Origin: Aquisalimonas sp.
Lineage (GTDB): Bacteria; Pseudomonadota; Gammaproteobacteria; Nitrococcales; Aquisalimonadaceae
Assembly (NCBI RefSeq): GCF_007120195.1
Contig: NZ_SKOG01000008.1
Location: 1-56,797, forward strand
Direction of reading: 5' to 3'
Length of the DNA: 56,797 nucleotides
Positions within the stretch are counted from its first letter, which is position 1, and the number at the start of each line of letters is the position of its first letter. Made by a program: the position numbers and the translations under genes. The notes beneath the pieces are model-generated. The model was not told where the DNA came from. It ran no database searches and was given only the letters and a program-made list of their open reading frames with translations. Shown here in pieces: positions 3,490 to 13,295 of the stretch.

Positions 3490-4240
3490 CCACCGGATCC
3501 GGCCATCGTCGGTGATCGTTGGCGCGACGTGTGGCATGCCCGCACGGAAGGCAGTGGCTTCTGGCTGGAACAGTGGCTCAGCCGTCAACGCCGTGATGAC
3601 TATTGGCGTCACGGGTCGGTGAACGAGCACTATCGGTGCCCCCGCGGTCACTCTGCAGGTCGCGGCGGATCGCCCTGTTGCAATGATCGCCGTGCGGCTG
3701 TCCGACGTCGCCGTGGACGACGAGGCCACCCGGGTCACCTACGGCCTGCTGAACCTCACCCATCGGGACGGGCACGACGAGCCCAAGCCGCTGGAACTCC
3801 CCATCCGGGCGGCGCGAGACAGTGTCGACGCTATCCGCGACCCTGGCCCCCCGCGCGGGGCGCCCGCCGGTCGGACAACCCTAAACAGGCCCAGAGACTA
3901 CGGTTGGACCGTGGTGCGGGATTTGGCGGCCGATTGCTCAACCCTGGAGGTGAAGAAGGACGAGGGCGAGTTTCGCTTCGACGAGCTGCAGGTTGCCATG
4001 CAGGTGCGCACAACGGAGTGGTACAGCCACACCAGAAACGATTACGATTCGGTGCGGGGCGAGGTTGAGTGTGTTCGCGGTATGTCCCGTGGTGACTGGT
4101 CGATTTCGGTGCGTACCCGCACGGTACTGACCTCCGATTGCGACGACTTCCATCTGCGCGCGGAAATGGACGGCTACGAAGGCGACCAACGCGTGCATTC
4201 CCATAATGTGGACCGCTCCATTCCCCGGGATCTGATGTAG
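3490..4240 (+). pseudogene. Decayed CocE/NonD-family hydrolase gene
   Basis: Fragments of one serine hydrolase (peptidase S15 / CocE-NonD family) are spread over two frames. Frame A, from about 3493, reads a piece of the catalytic-domain region including EGSGFWLEQWLSRQRRDDYW and WRHGSVNEHY. Near 3635 the frame changes, and the C-terminal beta-sandwich begins (GAPAVTLQVAADRPVA, then TRVTYGLLNLTHR), ending RGDWSISVRTRTVLTSD and RSIPRDLM. A real family member is about 600-700 residues; here the N-terminal half and two internal segments are missing. The fragment order is collinear with the family, so this is in-place decay rather than a functional short gene. Confidence 0.8.
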
Positions 4241-4484: not shown

Positions 4485-4487
4485 ATG

Positions 4488-6479
4488 ATGACAGACGATA
4501 GCGCCGAACAGCAGGCCCGTCTGGAGCGATTCGCCCAGCGCCTCGATGACGCCTGTGAGCGGCTGGCGCAGGTCCAGTCCTTTGCCAAATTCACCCAGAG
4601 TGCAGGTGCATTGGAGGCGGCCCGACGCTTGATGGCGGTGCCGGGGGGCGTAGAGGTGGTCTACCGCCGTATCTGTGCGCTCGAGGCGGCCGGCATATTC
4701 ATGGGCAGCGACTGGGAGTTCCCGGAAAAGCTCCAGCCCGTTATGGCTGCTAACACGCTCAAGTTGAGCAACGATCACACCCTGATCCTGGAATGTCTCA
4801 GCGAACTGCGTCTGGTGGCGGTGGCGCGAGGGGAATTGGCATCGGCGACCCTCTCACCCGACGATGCCCGGCAGTTTCTCGCCCGGGTGCTGGCGCTCAA
4901 CCTGCGACTGGTCTTTGGCCAGATGGATGAGTCCGAGCGTATTCGCCTGGGCCGGAACGCCGAGCTTGTGTATCAGCACCAGCGGTTCGTGGCAGAGCAG
5001 GTCGGTTTCGGCGAAGTGGTCGAGGAGCTGATCAGCGAAATCTGGCGCATCCTTGCGCAGCGGCCGATCGAGTTGGGCCATGTCCACCAAATGATCAATA
5101 GCGTTGCCGGCTACCTCAACAGCGGCGAACCGGGGGTGCCCGCGGCGAGCGCGCGCGGTGCCGAAAGGCTGATCAGTGCGCTTTACGGGCCGACCCGCGG
5201 CTGCCAGGAGGATCCGGGGCTCGATGTCTTTCGCGACCGCCTGGCCGGCATGGACGAAGCGGCGTTGCGCAATGAAGCCCTTGGTTTTGGGCGGGCCATG
5301 CATGACACCGGGCTGGTCTCCCCTTACCACCCGGTGTTTCTGCACTATGTGCTCGACCATGCGCCGGACCTGGTGTCGTCCACCCTGGGTTTGAGCAGCA
5401 CAGGGGTTGATGGGCTCACCTGTTACAGCGAGCTTGTCCACAAGCTGATCCGCGAGGCACTGTGGCCCGAGACGGCACAGGCGGTGTACGGGCTGGCCGG
5501 GTTGCTTGAGCGCGGTGTGCTCTACAGTGGTCCGGTGCCGGCCGCTTTGTGGCGGCAGATCCACCTTCAGCTCTCGCCGGAAGCGGAACGGCTGCTCGGC
5601 GTACAGGACGACAATGCCCGCTCGGCGGCATGGGCACGCCTGCTCGCCGGGGTGATCAATGTGCTCGGCTGTCCGCGGGGTATTGGTCAGGGCAACAATC
5701 CCACCTGCCAGTCCGCGCGGGCGCTGTCCATGTGGTCGAGCAACGACCCGGATTACCTGCTGCAGGTCGTGGCCTGGGCCACGCGCGATAATGATGTAAG
5801 CGCGCACTTCGAGGGCAAAGCGCTCTCGTCGGCGGCGCTCACGGCGCATATGCCACCGGCCCCGTTATATGATGTTGATCCCGTTTCGGCAGTGACTGTG
5901 CCGCACCTCGATGCCCTGTATATGGAGATGGGGCGGCTTTGCGCGTTTCGCAGCGAGGACCCACACAAATGGGTGAATCCAGAGTTCCATGGGTGGTGGG
6001 TGGGGCGTGGATTCGCCATCGTGGTCGATGTGGCGACTGGAGCTGTGGTCAATTTCGCGCGCTTTATACGCCGTTTCTACGCCTGCTACCATCCGTTGTA
6101 CAATGGCAAGAACCCGGTGATCCATTCCCAACCCGCCGGCATTGCCGTCACGGACTCAACCGCAAAGTTCGTGGGCTGGCATGCCATTGCCATCGAGCGC
6201 GTCGGTTATGATCCCGACGGCGAGATGCGTGTGTATTTTTTCAACCCCAACAACGACAGCACTCAGGATTGGGGGAACGGGGTGGAGGTGTCCACAGAAG
6301 GGGCGGGCGAACGGCACGGGGAGTCGTCGTTGCCATTCGAGCAGTTCCTCTCGCGGCTGTATATCTTCCACTTCGACCCGCGGGATGAAGCCGTGGATGC
6401 CACGATTCCCGAGGGCGCGGTTGAGAGAATTGCCGACATGGCCAAGAATAGCTGGGCGGCCGGCCGCCAGTTCAGCTGA
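4488..6479 (+). CDS. Large protein with C-terminal papain-fold-like (Cys-His-Asn) domain
   Basis: I do not recognise a named family for this 663/664-residue soluble protein. The first ~390 residues are leucine/alanine-rich and largely helical. In the last third, the pattern NNPTCQSARALSMWS (Cys407), KFVGWHAIAIERV (His565) and YFFNPNND (Asn586) looks like the Cys, His and Asn of a papain/transglutaminase-type site; spacing and order fit. No signal peptide or membrane segment is visible. The start could be ATG 4485 or 4488; GGAG at 4479-4482 fits 4488 better. It converges on the ATP-grasp gene with a 47-base gap, and a second papain-fold protein (BtrH-like) lies in that cluster. Protease, amidase or acyltransferase activity is inference. 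Confidence 0.7.
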   Translation: MTDDSAEQQARLERFAQRLDDACERLAQVQSFAKFTQSAGALEAARRLMAVPGGVEVVYRRICALEAAGIFMGSDWEFPEKLQPVMAANTLKLSNDHTLILECLSELRLVAVARGELASATLSPDDARQFLARVLALNLRLVFGQMDESERIRLGRNAELVYQHQRFVAEQVGFGEVVEELISEIWRILAQRPIELGHVHQMINSVAGYLNSGEPGVPAASARGAERLISALYGPTRGCQEDPGLDVFRDRLAGMDEAALRNEALGFGRAMHDTGLVSPYHPVFLHYVLDHAPDLVSSTLGLSSTGVDGLTCYSELVHKLIREALWPETAQAVYGLAGLLERGVLYSGPVPAALWRQIHLQLSPEAERLLGVQDDNARSAAWARLLAGVINVLGCPRGIGQGNNPTCQSARALSMWSSNDPDYLLQVVAWATRDNDVSAHFEGKALSSAALTAHMPPAPLYDVDPVSAVTVPHLDALYMEMGRLCAFRSEDPHKWVNPEFHGWWVGRGFAIVVDVATGAVVNFARFIRRFYACYHPLYNGKNPVIHSQPAGIAVTDSTAKFVGWHAIAIERVGYDPDGEMRVYFFNPNNDSTQDWGNGVEVSTEGAGERHGESSLPFEQFLSRLYIFHFDPRDEAVDATIPEGAVERIADMAKNSWAAGRQFS

Positions 6480-6526
6480 CGGCCGCCGGGCCCTCGGAGA
6501 TACGCGAACGAAGCGTTGCCGCGGCG

Positions 6527-7753
6527 TTACACGTAGAAATCCAGCTCCTCTTGGTGCTTCAGCAGATCCCGCAGTTTGTGCGGGTTGTCACCAAAGAAGT
6601 AAATCAGACCCCAGTGGGTGCCGAAGGCGGTGCGCTTGGTCACCGTCTCCTCCAATGGAGGCGTGAGTTCGTGGTACTCGAAGTACTCGTGGTTCTCGGT
6701 CTCCTCCGGAATCTCTAACTTGCTGACCACACGGCGGCGCGGGTAGACGCCGAAGCAGCCCGCATGGCCCTTGGCATCCAACACCGGGCGGGGGAAGAAC
6801 GCCTCGATCTCTTCTTCCGTGGTCTTCGGATCGAATGCCAGTACCATGCCCTGATAGGCGTTAAAGCCGTACGCGCGCTCCAACAGCTCGAAGACCTTGA
6901 AGCCCGGCGGCCGATACGCGACCTCGCCGAAGTACATGGTGCCGTCGCTGGTCACGAAGTACTCCGGGTGGATGAACCCGAATTCGATGTCGAAGGTCTT
7001 GATGAGTTTCTCGATTTCTTTGGTGATCAGGTTGCGCCAGCTTTCCAACTCCGGCGTCGCTGGCACGAATACCGAATAACCCAGCGTGACGTACTCGGAA
7101 ATATTCAGGAAGCGGATCTTGCCATTCTGGATCCAGGCCTCAACGGCGAATTCCCAGCCGTCCAGGTGGCTTTCCATCAGCACCGGAAACTCTTCTTCCG
7201 GAATCGTGTCGATATCTTCCGGCTTGCGAATCACCCGGTGCCCGAGGCAGCCGGCCTTGTCGAACGCCTTGAGGTGAATCGGGTCATCCGGGTCACCGTC
7301 GAGCTTGAGCAGGGTCTGGTTGACGCGCTTGAGGAAGCGGATCACGTCCTGGCGGTCATGGGCTTCCTCGAAAATGCCCACGCGGATGCCGCCGAGCTGG
7401 GCGCGGCGCTTCATCAGGGCCTTGTCCCGGAAGAGAACGGCCTGGCCGTGCAGCCGCGGGTTGCCCATGAGCACGGCGTTTACGGCGCCCGCCCATTCCA
7501 CTGTCTCCTCGAATAGTGGGATAGCGACATCCACACCCTCGTCCCGCAGCCGCTCGGCGATCTCCATGGAACGGTCGTTGAGGCGCTCGAAATCCCATGG
7601 AATAAACGGGATGTTGTGCTCTTTGGCATAGTCCGCGGCCCATTCAGGGGCGACGATGACGTAGCGCCGGTCGAAACGCTCCAGGGCATCGATGCAGCTG
7701 ATGCTCCAACCGAGGATGGCAATGTAGCCTTTGTTCGGATCTTTCTCAGTCAT
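6527..7753 (-). CDS. ATP-grasp ligase-like protein
   Basis: A 408-residue protein of ATP-grasp type. It has an N-terminal Rossmann-like part (GYIAILGWSISCIDALERF), a central segment rich in Glu with EFPVLMESHLDGWEFAVEAW, and a C-terminal catalytic portion (IEFGFIHPEYFVTSDGTMYFGEVAYRPPG) where the Mg/ATP-binding Glu residues usually sit. ATP-grasp enzymes activate a carboxylate or bicarbonate as acyl phosphate and join it to an amine or thiol; the substrate here is unknown. A GGAGAAG box precedes ATG 7753. It is the last gene of a minus-strand set with the carbonic anhydrase-like and BtrH-like genes, although 277 bases separate it from the former. Confidence 0.8.
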   Translation of the reverse strand: MTEKDPNKGYIAILGWSISCIDALERFDRRYVIVAPEWAADYAKEHNIPFIPWDFERLNDRSMEIAERLRDEGVDVAIPLFEETVEWAGAVNAVLMGNPRLHGQAVLFRDKALMKRRAQLGGIRVGIFEEAHDRQDVIRFLKRVNQTLLKLDGDPDDPIHLKAFDKAGCLGHRVIRKPEDIDTIPEEEFPVLMESHLDGWEFAVEAWIQNGKIRFLNISEYVTLGYSVFVPATPELESWRNLITKEIEKLIKTFDIEFGFIHPEYFVTSDGTMYFGEVAYRPPGFKVFELLERAYGFNAYQGMVLAFDPKTTEEEIEAFFPRPVLDAKGHAGCFGVYPRRRVVSKLEIPEETENHEYFEYHELTPPLEETVTKRTAFGTHWGLIYFFGDNPHKLRDLLKHQEELDFYV

Positions 7754-8030
7754 TGGCGAATCTTCTCCAATAGGGGTGGGATGGGCGGGCGTCGTTGCAT
7801 GCCCGCGCTACGAGCGCACCGGTAACGGGGGAGACAGTTCAAGTGCGAAGGCGGTGCGGCCTGGTGCCCTGCTGTCGGGACGTGCCGACAAACCTGTCGC
7901 CCCGTTGTCATTGTTGGTACAAATATTACGCACTTATTGGTCAGGTTAACACGTCGGCGACGCCGATTTTGGTTGCCATACTGGCATACGACCGCCTTGG
8001 CGTATATGACGGGCGTGCGAGTGCGCAATG
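7754..8030. other. Gap inside the BtrH/carbonic anhydrase/ATP-grasp set
   Basis: This stretch separates the carbonic anhydrase-like gene from the ATP-grasp gene. An AT-richer patch at about 7915-7945 contains, on the minus strand, TAATAT with a TTAACC upstream, a possible weak promoter for the ATP-grasp gene. A 92-codon minus-strand frame starting at TTG 8028 fills the gap and ends in a 4-base overlap with the ATP-grasp ATG, but its composition is not convincing. Confidence 0.35.
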
Positions 8031-9134
8031 CTAGCTGGTCATTTCCAGTATATCCAGGCGTCGAGTGGGCCAGTTAACCACTGCGGTGTATGCGGTCATG
8101 CGCTTGGCAAGCTCTGGATGATCCCGGCGGATCACCTCGGCGGCAAAGTGGGCGAGAAAGCGGGATTTCAATTCCGCGCGGGCGCGGTCGACACCGAATT
8201 CCTGATACGGTGTCGAGGCGAGCAGCAGAAAGCCGTCATCGGGGATGCGCCCGGCGGCCATGTTGTCGACGATGATTCCTGCGGCGGTGCCGATTGGCTC
8301 CGAGAGGTTGGGGTTGTAGGGGCCGATGATGAGCGCCATGTTTGGCACGTGCAGGAAATCGAATCCGCCACCCAGGCAGATCGCCCACTCCCGGTGCTCG
8401 ATGTCCAGCTCGCGGGCCACGCCGCGAATGGAGTGAACGTGCGCCAGATTGCCCTCCAGGAACGGCAGCAAATCCCGGCAGACCGGGGCCGGCATGTCCG
8501 GACAAAGGGCCATCACCCGCTGCTCAAGCGACGGCGCGTCATCGACGTCGAGGGCCGATACATCGAGGGTGGCGCCGTCGTTACCGTGAATGATCAGGGC
8601 ATCGCTGTCCGTTTCGAAGCCGCAAACCAGCGGGTAGACATGGGCGTGATCGTCGCCGAACAGGGCCTCCGCCTGGGTGCGGATCTGGTAGGCGTGGTCC
8701 ACGGCGGCCTCGGTGTCGCAGTCAAACCCGGCACAACCACGGGAGGGATCGCCCCGGGAGAAATGGTAGGTGATGAGCATGAGCGCGGGATGCCCGGCGC
8801 GGGTGGCCTCGTGCACCGTGCCCGTAAGTATCTCGCCCAGATAGGGCCAGCCCAGATCGAAGATGCCGCCGAGGTTGCGGAATGGGTAAATGATGCCCAG
8901 CGGGGTGCGCGTTGTATGGGGAATCTGGATGCGCCCATCCATGCACTTGAGCACGATGATGCGGGTGGGATGCACGGCCAGGTAGCGTTCGCGCGCGAGC
9001 CACGCCGACGGGCTGCAAAAGCCCTCCGAATACGCCCGCGAGAGTTCCATGAGCCAGTTGACGCGTTCATTGATGGGACGGGTGTGGATCTGCATCGGTC
9101 TCGCGGCCCCTGCTGCCTGGGTGGTTCCCATCAT
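8031..9134 (-). CDS. Beta-carbonic anhydrase-like protein, CsoSCA-type motif
   Basis: This 367-residue protein carries a beta-carbonic anhydrase zinc signature: KCMDGR (Cys64, Asp66, Arg68; CxDxR), then YHFSRGDPSRGC (His124, Cys134). Ordinary beta-CAs have His-x2-Cys; the wide His-to-Cys gap (10) resembles carboxysomal CsoSCA, where I recall 11. No RuBisCO or carboxysome shell gene is in the window. The ATG at 9134 overlaps the stop of the BtrH-like gene (ATGA), so the two are translationally coupled. A likely role is to interconvert CO2 and bicarbonate, or to bind zinc in a repurposed enzyme, for the neighbouring ATP-grasp/BtrH pathway (inference). No signal peptide is seen. Confidence 0.65.
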   Translation of the reverse strand: MMGTTQAAGAARPMQIHTRPINERVNWLMELSRAYSEGFCSPSAWLARERYLAVHPTRIIVLKCMDGRIQIPHTTRTPLGIIYPFRNLGGIFDLGWPYLGEILTGTVHEATRAGHPALMLITYHFSRGDPSRGCAGFDCDTEAAVDHAYQIRTQAEALFGDDHAHVYPLVCGFETDSDALIIHGNDGATLDVSALDVDDAPSLEQRVMALCPDMPAPVCRDLLPFLEGNLAHVHSIRGVARELDIEHREWAICLGGGFDFLHVPNMALIIGPYNPNLSEPIGTAAGIIVDNMAAGRIPDDGFLLLASTPYQEFGVDRARAELKSRFLAHFAAEVIRRDHPELAKRMTAYTAVVNWPTRRLDILEMTS

Positions 9135-10180
9135 GAGGGTTTGGATGCCACCTTTTCCAGCCCCCGCACGGCGTTTTCTTCAGCATCCGGCAGACGTGCT
9201 GCGGCGTCGGCAATGCCGGCGGGGTCCGGCGCTTCGAGTCGGGTCTGGTTGGCCAGATGGCTCCAGGCGTCCGCGCAGTGCCGATAGGCGATCGCGGCAT
9301 CATGGAAACCCGCATCACCGGTCAGCCGCGCCACCTCGGCACAGAACCCGGCTTGCAAGCGTCGGAAGAGCCCGCCACCGGTGCCGGCTTTCTCCACGAA
9401 CACCGGGATGGCCCGCACTGACGCGGTCAAGGTGCCGTCATCGAAGATCTCCGGCCAAGCGGCGATGTCCTGGGCGAAGGTGCGTACGCCCTCCAGACCG
9501 GTGGCCGTGAGGGCGCCGGCGGGCAACACGTTCGGGTCGAACAGGGAGCCTGTCCCCTGCCGCATGTGCCGCGCGGCTTCTGCGGCAGCATCCCGCGCGA
9601 CCGTCAGGAGGTCCGGCAGACGGCGCGGGAAGCGCAAGAGGAGTGCGGCGTGACGGTTCGGATCCGGAAAGCCCTGCGAGTTGCGCGCGCGGGCCAGGGC
9701 GTCCAGAGGCACCTCCTGGATGGTTTCGCGGTCATTGTCCGCGAGCCACGCGACGCCGCGGCCCTCGTCGTAGCCGACGACGACGATGGAGTGCCGTGTG
9801 TTGGAAAGACGCACGCGCAGGTAAGGGAGCTCGGCGATATCCGCATGGATGAGCACCGGGCATCCGGCATCCAGCTCTTCGGTGATCCAGCGCCAGCCCT
9901 CGTCCGGGTTATCGGTTCGGCGGGCGGTGGCGGTGATGCCGAGCCGCCGGCAGACATTCTGCTCCACGTCGGCATTGCGGCCGACGACGTAGATTGGCGG
10001 CTTCAGTCCCGGGGCGCGCGTGTACAGGAAAGACAAACCGCCGCTTAGGCCGAACACCAAACCTTCTTCGGGCGCGCCGTCCCATCCCAGCGCCGCCCAC
10101 TCCATCAGGTCGCGCAGTGCGCCGGAGCCACAATGCCCGGCGACACGATGGGGATAGTCATGGATTATGGCTGCGGCCAT
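9131..10180 (-). CDS. BtrH N-terminal / DUF4872-type protein (C39-like acyltransferase fold)
   Basis: The 349-residue protein resembles BtrH-family proteins: an N-terminal papain/C39-like domain followed by a DUF4872-like C-terminal half. Visible catalytic candidates are HCGSGALRD (Cys17), NTRHSIVVVGYD (His130) and WLADND (Asp148-Asp150). In butirosin biosynthesis BtrH transfers an acyl side chain from a carrier protein to the aminoglycoside, and an ATP-grasp enzyme (BtrJ) loads that carrier; both enzyme types occur in this cluster. No acyl carrier protein gene was found nearby. It is the first gene of the minus-strand set and overlaps the carbonic anhydrase-like gene by four bases. Confidence 0.75.
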   Translation of the reverse strand: MAAAIIHDYPHRVAGHCGSGALRDLMEWAALGWDGAPEEGLVFGLSGGLSFLYTRAPGLKPPIYVVGRNADVEQNVCRRLGITATARRTDNPDEGWRWITEELDAGCPVLIHADIAELPYLRVRLSNTRHSIVVVGYDEGRGVAWLADNDRETIQEVPLDALARARNSQGFPDPNRHAALLLRFPRRLPDLLTVARDAAAEAARHMRQGTGSLFDPNVLPAGALTATGLEGVRTFAQDIAAWPEIFDDGTLTASVRAIPVFVEKAGTGGGLFRRLQAGFCAEVARLTGDAGFHDAAIAYRHCADAWSHLANQTRLEAPDPAGIADAAARLPDAEENAVRGLEKVASKPS

Positions 10181-10381: not shown

Positions 10382-11260
10382 TTATTCTCGCTCCACTTGC
10401 GCGTCTTCCAGCCGATAGAACAGCCCCATGTCGCTGTCCTCCAGCAGCGTCATGCGACCGGAGAGCACCACCGGTTCGAACGTAAACGCAACTGCCCGTG
10501 CTGCTTTGACCTCCACCACGCTTTCCGGCCCCCCCGGCAGGCAGTAGAAGCAGCTCGGCGGGGTTCGCGTGATCAGGAAGTGCTGCTGCCTCTCGCTGTT
10601 GTCCAAAGGCATCATAAACCCTTGAAGTTTCACGTCGCGCCCGTCCAGATCCCGGATCTCGTCATCGAAGAGCGGCTCCAGCAGCCCATGCCGGCCTCCC
10701 TGTGTCTCGACCCCGCCAAGCAGATCCCAGGAGACGGCTCCCTGCACCTGTGGCAGCTCGGTGGCGTGCTCCTCCACGGGGTCGAGGGAGTGGCCGTACG
10801 CCTCATCGCTGACATAGACGCTCAGCTGCTTGCTGGTGCCTGCGCCGGTGACGGTCAACGTGTCCTGGCCAGGCAGGATCGCTCGGAACCGGAGGTCGGT
10901 TTTACCCTTGGCATCGGTAGTTACTTGGCTCTTGTTGAGCTCGTTGCCCACCAGCGAACTCACGTCAAGCGTTTCGGAGGCGATGGGCTTGCCGCCGTCG
11001 TCCTCCAGTGCCAGGGTGAGATCCAGGTATCCCTCCCTGGAGGTGGTCAGCCCCGCGACCTCGCCGAAGTCATCCATGCCGACCATGTAAATGCGAATGG
11101 CATTGCCGTTCCGATCGGCCGCCCCCTGGGCGATGGGTCTTTGGGGATCGGCCTGGGCATCGGTGTCCGCCAGACTGTCCGTCGAGGGTTCATCCGACCC
11201 GCAGCCGGCGAGGGCAAGGCAGACGGCGGTGATCAAAAGCGCCTGTGAGAATCGCAACAT
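10382..11260 (-). CDS. DUF3299 lipoprotein of a metal ABC system
   Basis: A 292-residue lipoprotein: signal peptide ending in the lipobox LAGC (Cys20), a Ser/Asp-rich linker, and a C-terminal DUF3299 domain with GRDVKLQGFMMPLDN and a Cys pair in PPSCFYCLPGGPE. The Cys-x2-Cys could bind metal. It is the third gene of an operon with an ABC ATPase and an FtsX-like permease. The same trio occurs in the Zur-regulated Pseudomonas aeruginosa PA4064-PA4066 operon, so a periplasmic role in zinc handling is inferred. ATG 11260 begins the signal peptide. Confidence 0.8.
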   Translation of the reverse strand: MLRFSQALLITAVCLALAGCGSDEPSTDSLADTDAQADPQRPIAQGAADRNGNAIRIYMVGMDDFGEVAGLTTSREGYLDLTLALEDDGGKPIASETLDVSSLVGNELNKSQVTTDAKGKTDLRFRAILPGQDTLTVTGAGTSKQLSVYVSDEAYGHSLDPVEEHATELPQVQGAVSWDLLGGVETQGGRHGLLEPLFDDEIRDLDGRDVKLQGFMMPLDNSERQQHFLITRTPPSCFYCLPGGPESVVEVKAARAVAFTFEPVVLSGRMTLLEDSDMGLFYRLEDAQVERE

Positions 11261-11317
11261 GCTTCGTGTCCCGTGAGATCCGAATTGAGCCGCTCCGTTG
11301 GCCCCGCCAATGGGATG

Positions 11318-12616
11318 TCAGCGGCCGCGGCCAAGCGTCTCGGCGATATCGGTGCGGTACGCCTGGACGGCGGGGATCACCGCCGCAACGATGCCAACCG
11401 CCACTGCGAGCCCCACGAGCCACAGCTCTTGGGTGAGGAACACCGCACCGGTAATCTCCAGTTGTTGCGTTTGGCGGAACGACTGGCCCAGAACTTCCGC
11501 TGCCACGTGGCCCAGAGCGAGCCCGAGCAGGGCGCCCATTACCGCGAGCATGATCGCCTCGGTGAGAATATGATTGAACAGGCGCCTGCGCGAGGCACCG
11601 AGGGTGCGCATCTGCGCGAGATCGTAGCGCCGGTCTTTGAGCGCATTGTAAAGCCCGATGAAGACGCCGAGCCCGGCGGCGATGACGAGCACCCAGCCGA
11701 AGGCGCGCAGGGTGTCCAGGCCGATACCCATCATCTGCATCAGACGTGCGGTCTCGTAGGCAGGCGCGGCGGCCTGCAGTGGCCCGCGGCTATTGATGAC
11801 CCGGGGCAAGGTCACGGCCGCAAGGGGCGATTGATACTGAACCAGCAGTGCGGTGAGTTCGCGCTCGTCGTCAGGCCCCTGCGCCCCCTCGTCATCGCTT
11901 TGCGCATCCCCGTTGCCATCGACGGCGCCATCTTGCGCAGGGCGTCCACCGGCGTGCTCATGTTCCGGGCCCAGACCGGCCTCATGGTCGTAGCCATGCA
12001 CCTTCCAAACACTCGGGACGCTGACAAGGATCAGGCGATCGAGCACACTGTTGGTGTGCCGGAGAACCCCCGTGACTGTGTAAGGGTGGTCCTCGTGGAC
12101 CTCACCGCCCACCGCCTCGCCCCCCGTGATTCCATGAACCCCCGCAAACCGATCGCCCACCCCCAGGCCGGTGCGTTCCGCGACCCGGGCGCCCAGCACA
12201 GCTTCCATGTCGTCGTCCCATAGGCTTCCACCTGCAGGAGCGCCACCATAGTGGCGCACATACCGGGGCGTGGTGCCGACGATGCGGAAGCCGCGGTAGC
12301 TGTCACCCAGTGCCAGTGGGATCGTGCCAGCCACCAGCGGGTGGTTTTGCACCCAGCGCGCTTCGTGGAGTGGAATATTCCCGGTGGGCACGTCGATATG
12401 AAAGACGCTGGAGAGGATCAGCTGCATGGGGCTGCCTTTTGCCCCGACGACCATGTCGATATCGGCGGCGTCGCGGGTCAGCCGCTGTTCCACCTGATAA
12501 CTGAACAGCAGCAGGACTGTAATGGTCGCGATGCCCAGCGCCAGCAACAGCACATTGAGCAAGGCTGAAAGTGCGTTGCGGCGCAGATACGCCAAACTCA
12601 GGCGAAAGAGGTTCAT
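11318..12616 (-). CDS. ABC transporter permease, FtsX/MacB type, with metal-ligand-rich insert
   Basis: The 432-residue protein has the four-helix MacB/FtsX topology: one N-terminal membrane helix (ALSALLNVLLLALGIATITVL), a large periplasmic domain, and three C-terminal helices ending with a conserved IPAVQAYRTDIAETL tail. The periplasmic domain contains an unusual run of His, Asp and Glu (roughly residues 215-255, including GYDHEAGLGPEHEHAGG), which looks like a metal-binding loop. Its start overlaps the end of the ATPase gene by four bases. Such transporters are mechanotransmitters or lipoprotein/metal exporters rather than typical importers; a zinc-related function is inferred from the DUF3299 partner and the upstream Zur-like box. 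Confidence 0.85.
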   Translation of the reverse strand: MNLFRLSLAYLRRNALSALLNVLLLALGIATITVLLLFSYQVEQRLTRDAADIDMVVGAKGSPMQLILSSVFHIDVPTGNIPLHEARWVQNHPLVAGTIPLALGDSYRGFRIVGTTPRYVRHYGGAPAGGSLWDDDMEAVLGARVAERTGLGVGDRFAGVHGITGGEAVGGEVHEDHPYTVTGVLRHTNSVLDRLILVSVPSVWKVHGYDHEAGLGPEHEHAGGRPAQDGAVDGNGDAQSDDEGAQGPDDERELTALLVQYQSPLAAVTLPRVINSRGPLQAAAPAYETARLMQMMGIGLDTLRAFGWVLVIAAGLGVFIGLYNALKDRRYDLAQMRTLGASRRRLFNHILTEAIMLAVMGALLGLALGHVAAEVLGQSFRQTQQLEITGAVFLTQELWLVGLAVAVGIVAAVIPAVQAYRTDIAETLGRGR

Positions 12617-13251
12617 TCTGCGGGCTCCAGCTCCAGGGCATGCTCCAGCACACCGCGCACGCGGGCGTCATGGGTCGCGATCACCAGGGTGGCGTGACAG
12701 GCCAGGGCCTGTGCCGTGAGCAGTTCCAGCACCTGCTGGCAGGTTTTGTCATCCAGGGCGGAGGTCGGTTCGTCGGCCAGGATGACTGCAGGCTCGTTGA
12801 TGATGGCACGCGCCAAGGCAACCCGCTGGGCTTGTCCCTGGCTCAGGCGATGCGGGTGGTGTCGGGCGACTTCCGCCACGCCCAGACGATCCAGGACCTC
12901 GAGGATCTGGTTACGGTCCTGGGAGAGTCCGGCGAAGTACCGGGCGAGGCGCAGATTGTTTTCCACGGTCAGCGCATCCACCAGATGCAGCGTTTGGAAG
13001 ACGACGCCGATATGCTGGCCCCGAAACTGGTCCAGTGCCCGCTCGCCGAGTTGGTCCAGGCGCCGCTCGCCGATGAATACCTGGCCCCGCTGCGGTCGCA
13101 GTAGGCCGCCAAGGATATGCAGCAGCGTCGTCTTGCCGCTGCCGGAAGGCCCAAGCAGCGCCCAGTGTTCGCCATCCTGGGCCTGCCAGTTCGGCAGCGT
13201 GATGGTGGTGCCATCACGGTAGCGATGGGTGACGTCCCGAATCCCGAGCAT
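12613..13251 (-). CDS. ABC transporter ATP-binding protein (MacB/LolD class)
   Basis: A 212-residue ATPase subunit with Walker A GPSGSGKTT, Q-loop VVFQTLHLVDALTV, Walker B ILADEPTSALD and the switch His in VIATHDAR. The signature is LSQGQAQRVALARA rather than LSGGQ, a tolerated variant in this class. It energises the FtsX-like permease encoded directly downstream. GGAGG at 13256-13260 precedes ATG 13251. A Zur-like palindrome and a TATTAT -10 candidate lie just upstream, so this is the first gene of the three-gene operon. Confidence 0.9.
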   Translation of the reverse strand: MLGIRDVTHRYRDGTTITLPNWQAQDGEHWALLGPSGSGKTTLLHILGGLLRPQRGQVFIGERRLDQLGERALDQFRGQHIGVVFQTLHLVDALTVENNLRLARYFAGLSQDRNQILEVLDRLGVAEVARHHPHRLSQGQAQRVALARAIINEPAVILADEPTSALDDKTCQQVLELLTAQALACHATLVIATHDARVRGVLEHALELEPAE

Positions 13252-13271
13252 CCCGCCTCCGGGCGATCTTC

Positions 13272-13295
13272 ATAATAAAGGTGTTATGATGTAAC
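13272..13295 (-). promoter_or_regulatory. Putative Zur box and promoter of the metal ABC operon
   Basis: An imperfect palindrome GTTATGATGTAAC (13283-13295) resembles the GTTATANTATAAC core of gammaproteobacterial Zur sites. A -10 candidate TATTAT (complement of 13272-13277) sits next to it on the minus strand, about 20 bases before ATG 13251. Repressor binding would cover the promoter. The match is partial, and assignment to Zur rests on the operon's similarity to PA4064-4066. Confidence 0.5.

Follow-up and report, generated by a model that had tools for sequence, protein, structure and literature searches.

The gene for a 664-aa protein with a calpain-like thiol enzyme domain (A) and the gene for an ATP-grasp ligase (B) are a tightly linked pair common to halophilic bacteria and actinomycetes, and on balance the two proteins appear to make and process an amide conjugate, with B as an amide ligase and A as a thiol amidase or transferase. 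The pair was analyzed in Aquisalimonas sp. contig NZ_SKOG01000008.1, where the window (the whole stretch of DNA, 56,797 nt) includes the locus presented here, 4,488-10,180, with genes for A, B, a CsoSCA-like protein (C) and a BtrH-like protein (D); further genes labeled E to G serve as context. A (4485..6479, + strand) and B (6527..7753, - strand, 408 aa) are convergent with 47 bp between them, and a gap of 277 bp separates B from C (8031..9134, - strand, 367 aa), which lies on the same strand and is overlapped by D (9131..10180, - strand, 349 aa) over four bases (ATGA). All four are complete frames with zero internal stops. The frame coordinates thus bear out the layout described in the first-pass annotation, with D and C overlapping, B downstream on the same strand and A converging on them; the length given there for A, 664 aa, also stands, but its start had been placed at 4488, which is the next in-frame ATG, and the frame opens at 4485.

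Comparison of A loci across public genomes shows that B adjoins A in 71 of 80 (3 of the 71 being cut by a contig end), in three orientations and in both Pseudomonadota and Actinomycetota; within the order, 14 of 18 loci have B next to A. Among 97 loci, a count that includes some genomes twice, 69 have B leading into A on one strand, 12 are convergent, 3 are divergent and 13 have no B in the locus. The association also holds at the level of whole genomes: in a phylum sample (299 genomes) all 8 genomes with A carry B, in a class sample (274 genomes) all 8 genomes with a strong B carry A, and where A is unlinked, each of the 10 distinct genomes tested carries B at another site. In two genomes (G609 and G613) a remnant of B, its final 38-39 codons, persists ~45 bp upstream of A, and a full-length B is present elsewhere. 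Distances among A sequences correlate with those among B sequences (r 0.78 over 80 loci, a value reached by 0 of 1000 permutations), a correlation that partly mirrors shared ancestry. No B was found in two genomes that have A (G275 and G310), both 81-82% complete, and the stretches read around five distant relatives of B hold no A-like gene. Between the window and the Streptomyces versions of the pair, identity is ~53% for A and ~81% for B.

Pairing alone is no proof that A and B act on a common bond, and it is conceivable, though somewhat unlikely, that they serve one process through different bonds or steps, B for example making a peptide-like signal or cofactor needed by A as a regulatory protease. 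Co-occurrence demonstrates a common process rather than a common bond, and copy numbers are not 1:1 (4 A and 2 B in G385 and in G486; 1 A and 2 B in G365), several A copies per B in some genomes being what would be expected with varied protein targets; against this, neither a separate target nor a signal is known, and the compact two-gene layout of many loci fits closely joined steps.

The fold of A was not evident from sequence searches. Zero Pfam or NCBIfam families scored above cut-off, none of 13 A members matched a Pfam peptidase family at E <= 5, no match to BtrH_N was detectable, and a sequence profile of the catalytic domain matched zero PDB chains. The model of that domain (pLDDT 88.1) was more informative: calpain cores fill its top 18 places in VIA-align (Z 9.1-7.7; 203-222 residues aligned at 4.2-4.8 A). 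Foldseek alone, by contrast, gives nothing at E <= 0.001, its best match being calpain II (E 0.012). The model of the whole protein gives only middling matches, the best a helical repeat (Z 6.6). As modeled, then, A consists of ~360 helical residues, which probably bind a substrate or partner, followed by a C-terminal domain with a calpain-like papain fold. Consistent with this fold, Q402, C408, H566 and N587 are invariant in 106 of 106 aligned rows, and the Cys, His and Asn are also kept in 4 A copies outside that count; the Cys-His-Asn site noticed earlier in the 664-aa protein is therefore present as C408, H566 and N587. The invariant Gln six residues before the Cys, with His and Asn following in order, is the arrangement of papain-fold thiol enzymes, and the calpain protease core (peptidase family C2) aligns with the C-terminal domain over ~210 residues. 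Unlike calpain cores, A has no Pfam peptidase match, carries the ~360 helical residues in addition and is tied to a ligase gene. The libraries searched give the A family neither a name nor a role, but a single scan of public genomes yielded at least 584 confirmed stretches (one gene can count twice).

B was placed by profile matches, invariant residues and its pairing with A. Its score against Pfam PF13535 (ATP-grasp_4) is 22 bits, below the 27-bit cut-off, and a profile search matched the ATP-grasp core of two L-amino-acid ligases (4wd3 and BL00235, 3vot) at 2e-5. Residues K162, E264, E277 and R281, which we take to be the catalytic Lys, Glu and Arg residues, are invariant in 10 of 10 sequences. 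Judged by sequence, B thus resembles the ATP-grasp L-amino-acid ligases, from which it differs in its low identity to them, in forming a close clade of its own and in being paired with A.

Taking the pairing together with the conserved catalytic residues and the folds (recognized by sequence or in models), we infer both the chemistry and a bond type common to the two enzymes. B would activate a carboxylate as an acyl-phosphate and join it to an amine, giving an amide or peptide bond, and A would cleave, trim or transfer a bond of the same kind; what they yield may be a small metabolite resembling a peptide, or a cell component that carries a peptide tag. A more specific version, which we put forward tentatively as one possibility, is an undescribed ligase-protease system of halophilic proteobacteria and actinomycetes, in which B, itself very conserved, would put a peptide-like tag on a conserved cell component and the calpain-like A family would remove or mature the tag. 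An ATP-grasp ligase acting with a papain-fold thiol enzyme is a known theme, exemplified by BtrJ/BtrH in butirosin biosynthesis and by glutathionylspermidine synthetase/amidase; the A-B pair shares this theme and differs from both in its domain families, and, if the proposal is true, it would add a calpain-like member. Because A is tied to one ATP-grasp ligase, its function is directly testable. The idea in the first-pass annotation of an ATP-grasp ligase cooperating with a thiol enzyme survives in general form, but the conserved partner is A and not the BtrH-like D.

Apart from A and B, five clusters are shared between actinomycete loci and others among the 80 public loci. The most frequent, a generic ABC-ATPase cluster, accompanies the pair in 22 of the 80 (2 of 7 actinomycete loci), which leaves room for a transported product; the other four occur in 8, 7, 4 and 4 loci, of which one in each case is from an actinomycete. 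No shared-neighbour cluster is general across the 80 loci, and a general third partner of the pair was rejected on this basis. Nor do the shared neighbours of these 80 loci include a warhead-forming enzyme, which counts against a further reading, namely that the product of B is a small peptide-like inhibitor holding A in check. ATP-grasp enzymes of fungi, according to the part of PMC12568646 consulted, take part in the biosynthesis of E-64, a cysteine protease inhibitor, and A has a calpain-like site; the conservation of A is as strict as for a main actor, and we consider this reading improbable. Around three solitary A copies and a handful of B or A-B loci, the gene neighbourhoods are mixed.

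A defence or phage link was also considered and is opposed by zero PADLOC matches for A, B, C and D (E <= 0.1) and by the absence of A from all phage records searched; one plasmid record contains A, a Halomonas replicon of 1.83 Mb whose genes are not annotated at that point. A regulatory RNA at the locus found no support in Rfam scans, which gave one tRNA in the window, far from the locus, and, across 10 loci of different taxa (of the 80), a single SRP RNA with no further match. Promoter and terminator scans yielded no more than shuffles. A literature search on ATP-grasp enzymes with papain-like proteins or amidoligases, BtrH/BtrJ, calpain and Halomonas/Marinobacter returned no paper on the A-B pair, which the amidoligase survey of Iyer et al. 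2009 may list; the available parts of PMC10318531 and PMC4431377 do not mention it.

The fold labels first given to the four proteins hold in profiles and models (D BtrH-like, C CsoSCA-like, B ATP-grasp, A papain fold), but the proposal built on them, a single pathway in which C feeds bicarbonate to B while D and A transfer or edit an amide or carbamate, was rejected because of the co-occurrence data and the surroundings of eight other C genes and 80 public A loci, and we give it very little chance. Adjacency, the D-C overlap and the position of B downstream on one strand speak for it, as does a C homologue that adjoins purE-purK in G082 (1 of 8 other C loci), PurK being an enzyme that uses bicarbonate (in the part of PMC10880623 consulted). 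Full-length C occurs in 6 of 59 related genomes (5 of 58 besides the source genome) and BtrH_N proteins in 7 of 59 (6 of 58), and only the source genome has both, so that the two coincide in 0 of 58 other relatives. Neither B nor D turned up near C at any of its 8 other loci, B is missing altogether from three of the genomes with C, A and B recur without C or D in two phyla, and neither C nor D lies near A in any of the 80 public loci. In the sample examined, the recurrence check named in the first-pass annotation thus went against the four-gene pathway. A supply of bicarbonate from C finds no support in B: the solved structures that match B best are L-amino-acid ligases. C and D seem to be chance neighbours of the A-B pair, outside the unit, and dropping the four-gene pathway spares work on a chance arrangement.

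Considered separately, C has the sequence features of a free-standing CsoSCA-type carbonic anhydrase homologue. It scores 27.2 bits against Pfam CsoSCA_cat (cut-off 21.5), with part of the model covered, and 28.2 bits against the carboxysomal-enzyme equivalog, far under the 241.05 cut-off; the zinc-site residues C64, D66, R68, H124 and C134 are invariant in 4 of 4 sequences and align to 2fgy. C thus shares the catalytic core and zinc-site residues of CsoSCA, the carboxysome shell carbonic anhydrase, and at 367 aa is unlike the frames of weaker class matches, mostly 504-545 aa. At this locus and at 7 of the 8 further C loci, the subset of neighbours that was scanned includes no carboxysome genes, and no paper on 'CsoSCA-like' was found.

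By profile, D is classed as a BtrH-family protein, with matches along the lengths of both BtrH_N (137.5 bits against a cut-off of 29.7) and DUF4872 (138 bits against 28); its score against the DarH acyltransferase NCBIfam equivalog is 80.1 bits, under the cut-off of 300. In the source genome only, D and C together follow a MacB-type exporter operon that comprises a DUF3299 protein (E, 10382..11260), an FtsX/MacB-type permease (F, 11318..12616) and an ABC ATPase (G, 12613..13251), all on the - strand. A Zur-like site (13282..13295, - strand) matches the published consensus exactly; it is the one exact match in the window, which is chance level (mean 0.57; 50 of 100 shuffles give at least 1). 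No Zur sites precede D, C, B, A or the 8 other C genes. Two observations keep the site in view as no more than suggestive: its position, 30 bp upstream of G, and the situation in L049, of the same genus, where the sole Zur site stands just before that genome's own G and matches on either strand (2 is reached by 1 of 200 shuffles). In the parts of PMC11481552 and PMC4542158 consulted, PA4063-PA4066 of Pseudomonas aeruginosa is a Zur-regulated MacB-type exporter, whose ATPase, permease and lipoprotein genes resemble G, F and E when likened by gene kind; D and C are extra in the source genome.

The four genes described in the first-pass annotation are borne out. The 664-aa protein A (4485-6479, + strand), the 408-aa ATP-grasp ligase B (6527-7753, - strand), the 367-aa CsoSCA-like protein C (8031-9134, - strand) and the 349-aa protein D (9131-10180, - strand) are all encoded by intact frames, and D overlaps C by ATGA. 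The domain labels are borne out by Pfam, which assigns CsoSCA_cat to C, BtrH_N and DUF4872 to D, an ATP-grasp match under threshold to B and nothing believable to A; none of the four passes any NCBIfam model.

Comparison across genomes shows that A and B form a unit, and this pair is the real find. Public A loci were collected by scanning genome_contigs with an A alignment, which gave at least 584 confirmed stretches; because only the best 80 were used, distant A members are under-sampled. Of these best 80 loci, 71 have B next to A, three of the 71 being cut by a contig end. The nine loci lacking an adjacent full B comprise L144 (a remnant only), L066 (which ends at a contig end) and seven with no B nearby (L072, L082, L091, L112, L114, L126, L129); for all seven B is found elsewhere in the genome, as it is in four genomes of the order in which A stands apart from B (11 handles in all, representing 10 distinct genomes, since L072 is G298). 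A occurs in 8 of 299 phylum-sample genomes, all 8 with B, and strong B matches occur in 8 of 274 class-sample genomes, all 8 with A; around a Streptomyces, strong B is present in 4 of 396 genomes (centre counted), one B being split over two contigs. B was not found in A-bearing G275 and G310, both 81-82% complete. Over 97 loci, duplicates included, the order is B->A in 69, convergent in 12 and divergent in 3, with no B in the locus in 13. G609 and G613 both retain the 3' end of a B gene (38-39 codons) on the strand of A, ~45 bp upstream of it, and carry a complete B at another place; the B->A order has thus been lost in these two genomes without loss of B. Besides A and B, the largest shared clusters reach 32, 31 and 25 of the 80 loci, and just five have members in both actinomycete and other loci, the biggest of these a generic ABC ATPase (22/80). 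In a separate case, a full B stands beside a short, stop-containing A fragment, a decayed partner, with a full A on another contig (G612:C16:39052-40772).

By record title, proteobacterial hosts of A include Halomonas, Vreelandella, Marinobacter, Alcanivorax, Oceanimonas, Halorhodospira, Rhodospirillaceae and Pelagibius, and actinomycete hosts include Streptomyces, Nocardia, Amycolatopsis and Actinophytocola. The one record titled Phormidium and the one titled Planctomycetaceae are possibly misassigned and do not count here as further phyla. Copies of A and B stand at 4:2 in G385 and G486, 3:3 in G450 and 1:2 in G365. Some gammaproteobacterial genomes carry three or four A copies (L224-L226, L237-L240), several with no nearby B and with changes beside the active site, e.g. 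W565 to R and W504 to D. A second copy of A, ~52% identical and cut by a contig end, is present in the genome of the window itself (G000:C218:19041-20792, L236), along with a fragment of an A end (G000:C284:6-161).

The proposal that all four genes constitute one pathway is not supported. Among 59 related genomes (own included), A is present in 30, full-length C (E < 1e-100) in six (G000, G278, G279, G281, G282, G284; weak C-type matches in G280, G283, G285 and G307 were left out) and BtrH_N above cut-off in seven (G000, G072, G274, G298, G304, G305, G324); only the window's genome, G000, holds both C and BtrH_N. The check for joint recurrence found none of C, D or the exporter genes E and F near A in any of the best 80 public loci. 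A is present in all four remaining members of the genus and C in none of them; one (G274) encodes BtrH_N proteins, on other contigs, and another (G277, locus L049) has the exporter genes G-F-E, then other genes, one strictosidine synthase-like, then B and A, with neither C nor D at the locus. B is absent genome-wide from the class-sample C genomes G014, G082 and G106, and at eight other C loci neither B nor D is nearby and there is no general neighbour. With C loci that lack B and D, and A loci that lack C and D, the best reading of C and D is that they are local neighbours, not members of the A-B unit.

C belongs to a free-standing CsoSCA-like family of ~350 residues (L046, L047, L048, L244-L248), with zinc-site residues kept in 4/4 aligned sequences and no carboxysome genes among the neighbours scanned at these loci. 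In the 274-genome class sample C proper occurs in three other genomes (G014, 63% identity; G082, 59%; G106, 38%); a further 20 matches are weaker and lie for the most part in longer frames. Neighbours of the eight other C genes include bPH-domain genes at three loci and purE-purK at one, the latter adjoining the gene of the gammaproteobacterium G082 (L047, 7535-10365); bicarbonate is a substrate of PurK (PMC10880623).

The whole-protein model of A (pLDDT 80.6) has an all-helical region over its first 360 residues; the C-terminal domain was modelled alone from 33 sequences (pLDDT 88.1). In VIA-align the top 18 entries for this domain are calpains (Z 9.1 to 7.7, 203-222 residues, 4.2-4.8 A), followed by a papain-like toxin, a phytochelatin-synthase-like enzyme (2bu3, Z 7.0) and staphopains, with bleomycin hydrolases and cathepsins lower down; Z values below 8 can reflect a common arrangement, and here a single family, calpain, heads the list and spans most of the domain. 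Foldseek by itself gives a weak result (best 0.012). The proposed Cys-His-Asn site holds: Q402, C408, H566 and N587 are identical in 106/106 rows, and papain and calpain likewise have a Gln six residues before the Cys. In the domain model C408 starts helix 47-59, H566 is part of strand 201-214 and N587 comes after strand 220-225, which is the papain layout. By its model, A represents an unnamed calpain-like family. For B, a ten-sequence profile matches over the ATP-grasp core the L-amino-acid ligases 4wd3 (2.1e-5) and 3vot (2.5e-5), and also 4dim, named phosphoribosylglycinamide synthetase (1.2e-4); K162, E264, E277 and R281 are invariant (10/10). B is the more conserved partner, with a mean distance of 0.16 versus 0.34 for A over the same 80 loci.

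Tight co-occurrence, two folds and intact catalytic residues are shown for the pair. B would form an amide bond via an acyl-phosphate, and A would cleave or transfer the same kind of bond via a thioester, a fresh variation on the theme of amide ligase plus thiol amidase or transferase. The product would be either a small molecule or a tagged cell component. The presence of more than one A per B, together with the high conservation of B, leans toward a substrate that is macromolecular and shared; the resemblance of B to dipeptide-forming ligases leans toward a small one.

The neighboring MacB-type exporter operon (10382-13251, - strand) encodes, by Pfam, an ABC ATPase (G), an FtsX/MacB-type permease (F) and a DUF3299 protein (E), the last presumably corresponding to PA4066. 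In P. aeruginosa, a Zur-regulated MacB-type exporter with links to pyochelin and cobalt includes an ATPase (PA4064), a permease (PA4065) and a lipoprotein (PA4066) (PMC11481552, PMC4542158). With the Zur consensus as quoted in PMC10393844, the sole exact match in the window lies at 13282-13295, 30 bp before G, a number of matches at chance level (50/100 shuffles); the only Zur-like site of the same-genus locus L049 is in the same place, before G. This putative site is suggestive. The arrangement of G-F-E with its upstream Zur-like site (10382-13295) is repeated in L049. Transcription may run on from G-F-E into D and C, but D is preceded by a gap of 201 bp. Elsewhere in the window, 1178-2374 encodes a 398-aa RtcB-family protein whose top NCBIfam match is a model for intein-containing relatives, and the frame at 3683-4240, which matches only a PepX_C tail, is possibly the remnant of a gene related to a 682-aa frame in L049 (11054-13102).
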